Notes under the pieces: model-generated
What the model saw: the letters and a program-made list of their open reading frames with translations, nothing else
The model's database searches: none
What the model was told of the DNA's origin: nothing
Translations under genes and position numbers: made by a program
Part shown: piece by piece, positions 732 through 13,780 of the stretch
Layout of the letters: each line of letters begins with the position of its first letter
Position numbering within the stretch: the first letter of the stretch is position 1
Source of the DNA: Acidobacteriota bacterium
GTDB lineage: Bacteria; Acidobacteriota; UBA6911
Direction: 5' to 3'
DNA: 41,047 nucleotides
Assembly (NCBI GenBank): GCA_012719355.1
Contig: JAAYAM010000161.1
Location: 1-41,047, forward strand

Positions 732-802
732 TCGACAACTTCCGCGTCACTCCCTTGGTAATCCATCTTTTAAACGGTTGAGCCGATACCGTCACCTTAC
801 CC

Positions 803-828
803 GGAGACCGGCGGGCCCGCCGGTCTCC
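803..828 (+). terminator. Perfect GC-rich palindrome, probable terminator of bfr
   Basis: Bases 803-828 form a perfect 26-base palindrome (arm GGAGACCGGCGG) that folds into a very stable hairpin 72 bases after the bfr stop. No T-run follows, so it may work as a transcript-stabilising or rho-assisted end rather than a classical intrinsic terminator. Confidence 0.5.
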
Positions 829-885
829 CCTGGCTCCATTCCATGATCGAGATTCCGCAACGCGAACTGGAAATGGGGCCGCCAT

Positions 886-918: not shown

Positions 919-2049
919 ATGTCCTACTTTCGGTTCAGCAATTCGTGGTCAGCCGTTCTTATCGTCCTTGCAATCGCATCCGGGGCAGTCGCACAGGAAA
1001 GCCTTCCCGCAGCAGAGTTCTCGCACCTCGTCCAGACCCTGTCCGAGGAGGGAGGATTCTTCTTCTCGGACAACTTCACTTCGAACGAAGATTCCTATCT
1101 CACCGTCGTCGACAGGATGAAACAGCTCGGCGCGACAGGAGGGGCCTATATCGGCGTCGGACCGGAGCAGAATTTCACCTATATCGCCAGGGTCCGGCCA
1201 CGAATCGCGTTCATCGTCGACATACGGCGCCAGGCGATAATCCAGCACCTGATGTACAAGGCCGTCTTCCATCATGCGCCGACACGCGCTGAGTTCATCT
1301 CCCTGCTCCTGAGCAGACCCATGAACGGAAAAGCGCTTCGACCGGACCAGCCTATCGAAGACATCGTCGCGCACTTCGCCAGGATGCCCGTCAACAGCGC
1401 AGCCTGCACTAAGAACCTGGCCCTTATCAGCAGGACTATCGAACGGGATTTCAAATTCCCCCTTTCCAGGGAGGATAAGGAGAGCCTCGAATTCGTCTAT
1501 CGGAGCTTTTCCAACCAGGGATTCGACATCGGCTTTGATGTCAACAGCCGCTGGAGCCGCCGCTTCGGTCATTTGCCGAATCTGCGGGAACTGATTCTGC
1601 AGAAAGACCCGAACGGGAAGACAGGCAACTTCCTTGCAAACGTGGACGACTACGACTTCGTCCGCACCCTGCACCGCAGGAATCTCATCATTCCCGTGGT
1701 CGGGGATTTCGGCGGCAAGAAGGCCCTGGCAGCCATAGGAGAGTACCTGCGCAAGAAGCGATACGTCGTCACTGTCTTTTACGCCTCGAATGTGGAAATC
1801 GTCCTGTTCGGCTACGGATATAACGCCGGCAACTCGTTTGCCGCATTCGTCGACAATATCAGGAAGCTTCCGATCAACGACCGCAGCATTCTGATCCGCT
1901 CCACGTTCTACTACTACGGACATCCGGCACAGCTGCCCGGATACAAGCTCTGCACGCTGCTGCAGTACATTTCGGTCTTTCTCAAGGACTTCGATGCCGG
2001 ACGCTATCAGGACTACCGCGACCTGATCCAGACCAACTACATAAAATGA
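919..2049 (+). CDS. Exported protein of unknown function, LIC_10091-like family
   Basis: The 376-residue product begins with a signal peptide: a hydrophobic stretch around residues 10-22 and a likely cleavage site after Ala-Val-Ala near residue 25, so it is probably periplasmic or secreted. The mature part resembles the uncharacterised LIC_10091-type family, in which a block like RPRIAFIVDIRRQ followed by an Ala/Leu-rich helix recalls a Rossmann-type methyltransferase fold with an altered ligand site. That family placement is from memory and uncertain. The ATG has a good ribosome site (AGGAG, 7 bases upstream). It stands alone between bfr and glcD, each with its own promoter signal. No enzyme signature is visible and I propose no function. 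Confidence 0.75.
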   Translation: MSYFRFSNSWSAVLIVLAIASGAVAQESLPAAEFSHLVQTLSEEGGFFFSDNFTSNEDSYLTVVDRMKQLGATGGAYIGVGPEQNFTYIARVRPRIAFIVDIRRQAIIQHLMYKAVFHHAPTRAEFISLLLSRPMNGKALRPDQPIEDIVAHFARMPVNSAACTKNLALISRTIERDFKFPLSREDKESLEFVYRSFSNQGFDIGFDVNSRWSRRFGHLPNLRELILQKDPNGKTGNFLANVDDYDFVRTLHRRNLIIPVVGDFGGKKALAAIGEYLRKKRYVVTVFYASNVEIVLFGYGYNAGNSFAAFVDNIRKLPINDRSILIRSTFYYYGHPAQLPGYKLCTLLQYISVFLKDFDAGRYQDYRDLIQTNYIK

Positions 2050-12207: not shown

Positions 12208-12930
12208 CTATTGCTCAGACGTTACCGCCTGGACCGGCTGCTCGTCGCTCCACAAATCGGTGACGCGGCGCGCGCCCAGGTAGCGCACTGCGTACCAGAG
12301 CTTGTTCAGGTCGCTGACGATCACGCGCTTGGCTTTGAGGGCTGCGTGGAGAAACTTGTTGTCGCCGACGTAAATGCCTACGTGCGTGGGCTGAGTCCCT
12401 CCCGAGGAAAAGAAGACCAGATCGCCAGCTTCGAGCGCGTGACGGTCCACCTTCTCTCCATGCCGGAACTGCTCCCGAGAGGACCGCGGGACATCGATGT
12501 TGAACTTGGAAAAGAGCGTTTTCACCAGGCCGGAACAGTCGAAGCCGCTCTTGGACGAAGTACCGCTGAGCCGGTAGCGCACGCCCAGGAACTGGAATCC
12601 GGCCTCCACCAGCTGGTAGCGCATCGGATGCGTGTTGGACGCCTTGACATTCTTTTCCGGGGACGAGGCTTGCGGGAGCGCCGCCAGCGGCAGCGGAATC
12701 GACAACACCTGCCCTATGGTGATTCTGTCGCTCCCAGGACGATTGAAGGAAAGAAGGAGCTCAGGAGTCGTGTTGTAAGCACGGGCTATCCTGCTGAGAT
12801 TGTCGCCCCCCCGTTGGACGACGTACGTACTCGAGGATGAGCCGGTCGAAATCTGCGAATCACCTGAAACGCAAAAAGAAGTTATGATGAGTGCTGAGCA
12901 GAGGAGTACAGCGTAGGATTTTCCCTTCAT
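12208..12930 (-). CDS. LysM plus NlpC/P60 peptidoglycan endopeptidase
   Basis: The 240-residue protein is exported: MKGK is followed by a hydrophobic segment (residues 5-20). A LysM peptidoglycan-binding module (about 35-80, YVVQRGGDNLSRIARAYN) leads to a C-terminal NlpC/P60 cysteine peptidase. Cys132 in FDCSGL, His183 in PTHVG and His195 in FLHA form the catalytic set that cuts between D-Glu and the diamino acid of stem peptides. An in-frame ATG 48 bases upstream gives a hydrophilic extension before the signal peptide; the ATG at 12930, with AGGACC upstream, is preferred. Cys20 follows Ser-Phe, a poor lipobox, so a lipoprotein is unlikely. It is likely a cell-wall remodelling hydrolase and appears monocistronic. 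The 400 bases upstream to 13330 contain only the repeat element. Confidence 0.92.
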   Translation of the reverse strand: MKGKSYAVLLCSALIITSFCVSGDSQISTGSSSSTYVVQRGGDNLSRIARAYNTTPELLLSFNRPGSDRITIGQVLSIPLPLAALPQASSPEKNVKASNTHPMRYQLVEAGFQFLGVRYRLSGTSSKSGFDCSGLVKTLFSKFNIDVPRSSREQFRHGEKVDRHALEAGDLVFFSSGGTQPTHVGIYVGDNKFLHAALKAKRVIVSDLNKLWYAVRYLGARRVTDLWSDEQPVQAVTSEQ

Positions 12931-13066
12931 AATCGGTCCTGGTTCCTGTTTTCTGCTTGACGCGTTTGAGCTGCTCAATGCACCTGCCTGCGCTATTCAG
13001 TCATTGAGCATGGTCAGTCATGATATAGATTTTCGCCTGAAAGACAACTGAATTCTGGGGGAATGA

Positions 13067-13288
13067 CCAATCGGTTCGGTCGTCCCTATCGGGACCTGAT
13101 TCATAGGTTGATGCGTGATCCCGGCACTTCCGTGCCGGGCTATTCTCATCTCGTCCCGCCGCCGTGGTCTGCGAGACGCACCGGATATCACGGGCCCACG
13201 CGTCCCGTCATAGGCACGGAAGCGGAAGTGCCGGGATCAATAGGAACGAAGAAATAGTCAAGTCCCATCGGGACGACCGATCAATTGG
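13067..13288. repeat. Long imperfect inverted repeat, REP/REPIN- or MITE-like element
   Basis: The left arm (13067-13138) and right arm (13213-13288) are inverted copies about 72-76 bases long with small indels, bounded by CCAA and TTGG. Each arm contains the same blocks: CGGTCGTCCC...GGGAC at the outer side and GATCCCGGCACTTCC near the centre. The blocks themselves fold: GTCCC-TATC-GGGAC (13082-13095) and an 8-bp CCCGGCAC/GTGCCGGG hairpin (13120-13139). A further partial copy of the outer block, CGGTCGTCCTCCGGG, lies at 13306-13320. The element has no coding capacity and fills the gap between two convergent-to-tandem minus-strand genes. Its design resembles palindromic elements mobilised by REP-associated tyrosine transposases; no transposase is in the window. 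Confidence 0.75.
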
Positions 13289-13330
13289 ACGGGTTGGGCT
13301 TCCTCGGTCGTCCTCCGGGCACGGCACACG

Positions 13331-13780
13331 CTAAACGAGCGGGAGAGACATGAAAACCGTGGCCATCGGTTCGCCGAGCACATTAAACGAAACCTGTCCT
13401 CTTTCATGGAACCCGCACGCCCGGTAAAACCCCACGGCTCGAGGTGAGGAGTAGACAAACATATCGCGGAAAAGAATGTCCGGGACCATCGTCCGGAGAT
13501 GCTCCACAAGCGCCCTGCCTGTTCCCCTGCGCTGGTGCCGAGGCCGCACGCACAGGAGACGGATCTCGTTCAGGTCAAGACCTGCGACTCCTTCAATCTC
13601 TTCTTCCGATTCAAAAACCGTCACATAAAACAGACGCGCACGCTCGTGCATACTCTCGGGACTCTCGCTACCGCAGAGCTTTTGCCGCAGGCCGTGGGAG
13701 ATCGACGAGTCCTTCGCCACGCATTCGCGGATCAGCTCGCAACACGACGATGCGTCCTGGGACCGGAACTGTCGTATCAT
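13331..13780 (-). CDS. GNAT-family N-acetyltransferase
   Basis: The 149-residue protein has the length and layout of a single-domain GNAT acetyltransferase. The acetyl-CoA pyrophosphate loop is visible as VRPRHQRRGTGRAL (Q/R-x-x-G-x-G/A motif), preceded by the beta strand LNEIRLLCV. The C-terminal half contains YSSPRAVGFYRACGF, the usual motif B region ending in GF. The substrate cannot be deduced; relatives include amino-acid, peptide and small-molecule acetyltransferases. It lies divergently to the TlpA-like gene, and its stop is beside the inverted-repeat element. The ribosome site before the ATG at 13780 is poor. Confidence 0.85.
   Translation of the reverse strand: MIRQFRSQDASSCCELIRECVAKDSSISHGLRQKLCGSESPESMHERARLFYVTVFESEEEIEGVAGLDLNEIRLLCVRPRHQRRGTGRALVEHLRTMVPDILFRDMFVYSSPRAVGFYRACGFHERGQVSFNVLGEPMATVFMSLPLV

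Follow-up and report, generated by a model that had tools for sequence, protein, structure and literature searches.

The short intergenic region at 13077–13319 of the window (the whole stretch analysed here, 41,047 nucleotides of an Acidobacteriota contig) raises the question of what kind of repeat it holds and which enzyme may have spread it. A preliminary description had seen two simple inverted arms of 72–76 bases with hairpin blocks and had proposed a RAYT transposase as the mover. Comparing copies from the same genome, we found a unit of 80–105 bp made of three hairpins, a module in which a first hairpin (HP1) is followed by a spacer of ~20 nt, a second hairpin (HP2), another ~12–13 nt, a third hairpin (HP3) and a tail. 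HP1 is TCGGTCGTCCC, a loop of 3–4 nt and GGGACTTGATT, continued in the genus of the window species by a T-rich spacer; HP2 is CCCGGCAC, a 4 nt loop and GTGCCGGG, giving an 8-bp stem with CTAT immediately after; and HP3 is GTCCC, a loop and GGGAC. The CTA after HP2 corresponds, on the opposite strand, to NTAG at the 5′ foot of the hairpin, in the window's genus mostly ATAG. The features of the locus are the following.

12208–12978, minus strand: flanking gene for an NlpC/P60 + LysM protein, its start about 100 bp from the element
13077–13158, plus strand: module A, with the HP1 stem at 13082–13086/13091–13095
13120–13127/13132–13139, plus strand: HP2 stem of module A, with CTAT next at 13140
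13153–13157, plus strand: 5′ arm of HP3 of module A, the 3′ arm gone
13159–13187, no strand: region separating the tail of A from that of B; it includes GCCGTGGTCTGCGAGACG..., which resembles the tail found after HP3 in other copies
13188–13279, minus strand: module B, inverted relative to A and more decayed than A
13274–13262, minus strand: HP1 of module B, intact
13235–13213, minus strand: HP2 of module B, loop enlarged and most of the 3′ arm lost
about 13206–13202, minus strand: HP3 of module B, 3′ arm only, the 5′ arm gone
13304–13319, plus strand: remnant C, HP1-like, 24 bp past HP1 of module B and head-on to it
13331–13780, minus strand: flanking gene for a GNAT acetyltransferase, its end about 10 bp from remnant C and about 50 bp from module B

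The inverted arrangement was thus correctly perceived, with 13077–13279 being two inverted copies of one unit, but the arms are modules A and B rather than simple repeats, and their imperfection is decay, with no clean palindrome. An exact search of the whole window placed CCCGGCACTTCC at 13120 (plus strand) and 13224–13235 (minus strand) and nowhere else, and CGGTCGTCCC at 13077 (plus strand) and 13270–13279 (minus strand), with a one-mismatch copy at 13305. A repeat search returned two nested inverted pairs within the element (17 nt at 100% and 17 nt at 88%), and the DNA fold of the element beat 200 of 200 shuffles (z −3.59). The third partial block, previously placed at 13306–13320, corresponds to the 16-base remnant C, whose HP1 match scores 14, a value also reached by the maxima in 2 of 20 shuffles; taken alone it lies near chance, and its position beside the A/B pair is what tentatively argues for it. 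We did not retain it as an independent unit, being insecure alone at a score that shuffles equalled. No ORF of at least 100 aa overlaps 13067–13320, in agreement with the lack of coding capacity noted before, and no Rfam family reached its gathering score anywhere in the window. The suggestion that the element might end transcription of the flanking genes found no support, since a terminator scan returned no intrinsic terminator in 12900–13500.

Within the window's genome (4.57 Mb in 377 contigs) a 254-base query gave 83 alignments at E ≤ 1, and 38 fetched stretches yielded 50 curated units. The family is not single copy, and the proposal of a non-autonomous, many-copy, REP/REPIN-like element built of inverted units held. 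Thirty of these units, when aligned, had a median pairwise identity of 72.8% and a maximum of 90.6%, and at such low identity the family must be old in this genome. Where two units lay within 400 bp of each other, HP1 pointed outward in eight of nine pairs (chance about 1e-4 under random orientation). Several copies of about 110 bp have a symmetrical HP1-HP2-HP1 layout, and many are long inverted repeats. Judged against crude ORF calls, 23 of 50 units lay between ORFs, 9 at contig or stretch edges and 18 overlapped an ORF call, many of these ORFs being small and likely spurious. Most copy loci had a G+C content of 0.53–0.58, like the window locus, with one at 0.51, and on this basis contamination (4.21% for the assembly) was set aside as their source. 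No target duplication was seen by eye in the printed flanks.

Copies were also seen at the starts of five contigs (C152, C157, C44, C174 and C192) or no more than about 500 bp from them. This suggests that the assembly is interrupted by the module repeats, where a missing tnpA could lie hidden. In the assembly as it stands, neither a RAYT gene nor an IS200/IS605-type gene, both of which the preliminary description had proposed looking for, was found: no Y1 gene appeared at E ≤ 0.01 with PF01797, which covers all Y1 transposases, no RAYT at E ≤ 1e-8, no match to the transposase of a sister species described below at E ≤ 10, and none to a 78-row profile of its subclass. That description had also held that a single copy together with no related transposase would speak against a mobile element; the transposase is indeed absent, but the repeat is present in many copies, as the 83 alignments show.

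Among the nine sister species listed for the genus, two, here called G001 and G008, had modules recognisable by sequence, with no matches in the other seven genomes and up to 57 in one. In G001 (contig C76) modules at 789–875 (minus strand) and 1352–1436 (plus strand) have a 150-aa Y1 ORF, at 880–1332 on the minus strand, exactly between them, with HP1 of both modules pointing towards the gene; in G008 (contig C73) a truncated ORF of 61 aa holds the same position between two modules. The intact G001 protein scored 72.4 bits with the IS200 model NF033573 (cut-off 55) and 27.8 bits with the RAYT model (cut-off 80), and has the motifs DHAH, WQ and YIAHQDAHH. Compared by motifs and length with the published description, it appears to fit subclass 1.2 of the TnpA_Y1 transposases as set out in Table 1 of PMC6006769.

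G008 also carries, at eight places, module pairs 114–121 bp apart, in which the intervening ~100 bp consist of the tnpA start (VANSYTSIFIHII) joined to the tnpA end (QEEHLSFLN...KCVWG*), with 13 codons kept at the start and about 20 at the end. This tnpA-deletion derivative, with both modules kept, is present in at least eight dispersed copies that are mostly 88–95% identical, and such internal deletions are evidence that the gene and its two modules once moved or were amplified together. At the G008 loci L232–L247, GGAG...CTCC is bordered on each side, at a distance of a few nt, by an extra hairpin of the GTCGCGGCTTCAGCCGCGAC type; its stem varies among copies, and it may belong either to the target or to the element itself. 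Target duplication is not obvious by eye in the G008 flanks, where these outer hairpins blur the element ends. G001, in turn, has 17 pairs with their HP1s face to face, 19–62 bp apart. Its near-identical copies (loci L212–L219) belong to an element of 302 bp whose inverted ends, CAGGACTCCTGATCC, span 15 bp, and all seven complete copies have direct duplications of 5 bp; judged by these features, the element appears to be a DDE-type MITE that captured a module doublet and spread it in near-identical form. As such duplications are the mark of DDE enzymes, TnpA would not be the sole mover of modules. The divergent G001 doublets align over the module pair only, without the MITE ends. Pair orientation also differs, with HP1 inward around tnpA and in G001 and G008 versus outward in the window's genome.

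A scan for relatives of the transposase matched at least 586 stretches, with 585 confirmed. From these we retained 80 loci, 76 of them with full flanks, and the record titles named Planctomycetota, Verrucomicrobia, Acidobacteria, Bacteroidetes, Calditrichaceae, Chloroflexi, Zixiibacteriota, Deltaproteobacteria and others. Inverted similarity between the two flanks exceeded the 99% level of the null in 43 of these 76 listed loci, with direct flank similarity also over threshold in 18. Because the inverted-flank statistic is inflated by hairpin-rich flanks, we placed the weight of evidence on counts of hairpins and modules and on the CTA foot. Of the 76 listed loci, 43 had HP2 followed by CTA in one flank or both (28 in both), which makes 71 of 152 flanks, compared with 16 of 152 in reverse orientation and 1.5% in shuffles; 20 of the 71 feet were CTAC, corresponding to GTAG. 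Among 69 flanks with HP2, HP1 was found in 60 and HP3 in 66, as against 8% and 7% after shuffling. Strict modules, having all three hairpins, numbered 93 in the 565 kb of listed loci, 59 of them gene-adjacent with HP1 towards the gene, 6 in the opposite orientation and 28 elsewhere, with none in shuffled loci. They occurred on at least one side of 34 of the 76 listed genes, on both sides of 21 and on neither side at 42 of the loci, and beside none of the genes in ten control loci of other Y1 transposases, one of which (L061) had a dispersed module copy about 340 bp away. At L155, a locus of the cultured Verrucomicrobia bacterium LW23, both sides of the gene have HP1-HP2-CTA-HP3. It was also clear that 84 perfect hairpins (8-bp stem, 3–4-nt loop), picked regardless of their neighbours, had CTA next to them in 57 cases while comprising 37 distinct stems. 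As judged from these comparisons, the modules that flank this transposase across phyla keep their anatomy and differ in sequence. The transposase itself had Y---Q--HH in 76 of 77 intact relatives.

We also considered viral or plasmid carriage and set it aside, with the HP1 pattern of the genus found in no viral contig and relatives of the sister transposase in none of 50,697 phage records and in 3 of 72,556 plasmid records.

For Acidobacteriota we used a structure model, R1, built from 17 of the 69 flanks with HP2, with near-duplicates removed and rows limited to an HP2 of exactly 20 nt, 3-nt loops in HP1 and HP3 and a fixed HP3 distance. Covariation in its alignment is not independent evidence, as the rows were chosen for perfect stems; its use on Acidobacteriota is an independent test, since no row comes from that phylum. 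The model matched module A at 13082–13161 (plus strand; 35.8 bits, E 1.6e-6), gave 15.2 bits for module B (E 0.099) and matched most other copies of the window's genome with E below 1e-3. It found modules in 51 of 199 Acidobacteriota genomes, where the E-values are rough and the per-genome counts are lower bounds, at most 23 candidates per genome having been scored under stricter filters. A transposase profile, which itself includes Acidobacteriota rows, matched 44 of the 199 at E ≤ 1e-20. Modules were found in 40 of the 44 genomes with the gene compared with 11 of the 155 without it, leaving 4 with the gene only and 144 with neither; the Fisher p of 3e-27 is too small given the kinship of the genomes, although the contrast is plain nonetheless, and the co-occurrence spans 16 families. 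The 11 module-only genomes include that of the window as well as a single-contig genome (G026, estimated completeness 85%), and they indicate either that orphan families exist or that genes were missed. Two further observations concern single genomes: in G149 (C1:226150-227120) six modules in the same orientation follow each other with a period of about 170–200 bp, as a tandem array resembling a BIME cluster, and G016 has 12 matches to the subclass-1.2 profile, unusually many for a subclass that is reported to occur in few copies.

A conventional REP/REPIN family with a RAYT as its mover would share the inverted hairpin pairs, the many copies and the NTAG foot, which is GTAG in part (20 of 71 feet being CTAC). 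We nevertheless regard this as improbable. The window's genome has neither a RAYT nor any other detected Y1 gene, the transposase found between modules falls well under the RAYT cut-off, and among its 78 listed relatives all match transpos_IS200 whereas 54 match REP_Tyr_transpos (best E 1.3e-10). Moreover, in the 127 genomes with a RAYT, modules occur in 38 of 42 that also have subclass 1.2 and in only 8 of 85 that do not; where RAYT is absent, the corresponding figures are 2 of 2 and 3 of 70. RAYT does not account for the presence of modules once subclass 1.2 is considered, and the mover named in the preliminary description is therefore not the one to which the data point.

The reading of modules as passengers in the inverted-repeat elements of a DDE transposase, a MITE family with target duplications, is slightly less improbable, given the seven duplicated G001 copies with their CAGGACTCCTGATCC ends and the many long inverted repeats in the window's genome. 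It leaves the linkage to tnpA in other phyla and the co-occurrence unexplained, however, and it does not agree with the divergent G001 doublets lacking those ends, nor with flanks in the window's genome in which no target duplication was seen, if only by eye. Least likely, and in our view hardly to be expected, are RNA elements such as terminators or mRNA stabilisers, selected for the host rather than being mobile DNA. The T-rich spacer after HP1 in the genus would suit them, as would the 11 of 23 units with both neighbours scored that lie between convergent ORFs, the ORFs being crude calls, but the window element has no terminator-like site, the modules are patchy among sister species and they are linked to a transposase.

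We therefore consider 13077–13319 to be, probably and with some reservation, a decayed non-autonomous mobile repeat of a three-hairpin family that flanks a subclass-1.2 IS200-like Y1 (HUH) transposase. The element is real, many-copy and REP-like, and very probably belongs to a system in which subclass-1.2 TnpA is paired with three-hairpin modules, as module anatomy, gene linkage, deletion derivatives and co-occurrence, all seen in genomic sequence, would indicate. With no transposase in the assembly and a median identity of 73% among the diverged copies, the window copy is best read as a fossil, or as an orphan that has lost its enzyme or whose enzyme gene escaped assembly. Movement by TnpA is what we infer: the folded modules would be recognised on single-stranded DNA, with NTAG at the 5′ foot of HP2 possibly serving as a guide, as GTAG does for TnpA_REP, and the enzyme would cut and rejoin them and so spread modules in trans, while copies without the gene would be non-autonomous and would decay once the enzyme was lost. 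Against this reading stand the lack of a Y1 gene in the window's genome, the outward pairs there, the DDE-type spread in G001 and the 42 of 76 loci without a strict module, in addition to the four Acidobacteriota genomes with the gene and no matched module.

Compared with known systems, the arrangement shares with REP/REPIN and RAYT (TnpA_REP) the many-copy hairpin units, often in inverted pairs, the flanking of a single Y1 HUH gene and a tetranucleotide at the hairpin 5′ foot, NTAG here and GTAG there, the latter being important to cutting by TnpA_REP according to the portions of PMC8266576 consulted. It differs in having a three-hairpin module instead of one palindrome of 20–40 bp with 5′ GT[AG]G, a foot that is mostly ATAG, and an IS200-like gene below the RAYT cut-off. 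With IS200/IS605 it shares the G001 protein's score above the NF033573 cut-off, folded ends and deletion derivatives retaining both ends. The two ends are inverted copies of one module here, whereas those of IS200/IS605 have one hairpin each, unlike one another (PMC6006769, in the parts consulted). Subclass 1.2 itself, in those parts, is described as about 148–150 aa with DHxH, WQ and Y---Q--HH, as found here, but as mostly from Cyanobacteria and Bacteroidetes, lacking REPs and IS properties and in general also typical terminal structures, in contrast to the flanking modules in several other phyla reported here. Class 3 of the same source resembles the present system in its atypical flanking structures, high copy number and occurrence in Acidobacteria and Planctomycetes, and is distinguished by NHVH, YV..EQ and a CnGA foot, where the genes here have DHxH, YIxxQxxHH and an NTAG foot. 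The CGTC-tagged REPs, for which the excerpts seen of PMC3733652 describe no dedicated transposase, share CGTC before or overlapping the HP1 or HP3 stem in many module families; theirs have an 8–9 bp stem, unpaired CGTC and a CCA tail, the module stems here being 5–6 bp with GTC inside the stem. In the open-access literature searched, we recognised no report linking a subclass-1.2 transposase to such repeats, the nearest being PMC6006769 and PMC3733652 as far as their consulted parts go.

The interest of these results lies in the system behind the window copy rather than in a single fossil. Since the modules flank the subclass-1.2 gene in its relatives, they suggest what the enzyme acts on, giving a candidate DNA substrate to a subclass so far described as an orphan with neither IS nor REP partners, and they would account for an intergenic repeat that is common in Acidobacteriota and other phyla. 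We lean, with less assurance than for the element itself, towards a wider view in which subclass-1.2 TnpA serves a REP-like system of its own in many phyla and would spread its three-hairpin substrate in trans, with geometry and NTAG foot kept and sequence free, and with module populations outliving the enzyme as fossils. Natural sets in which structure is held while sequence is free should be useful for studying co-evolution of HUH enzymes and their hairpins, and a clean test is now possible, using one small protein against a three-hairpin oligonucleotide.
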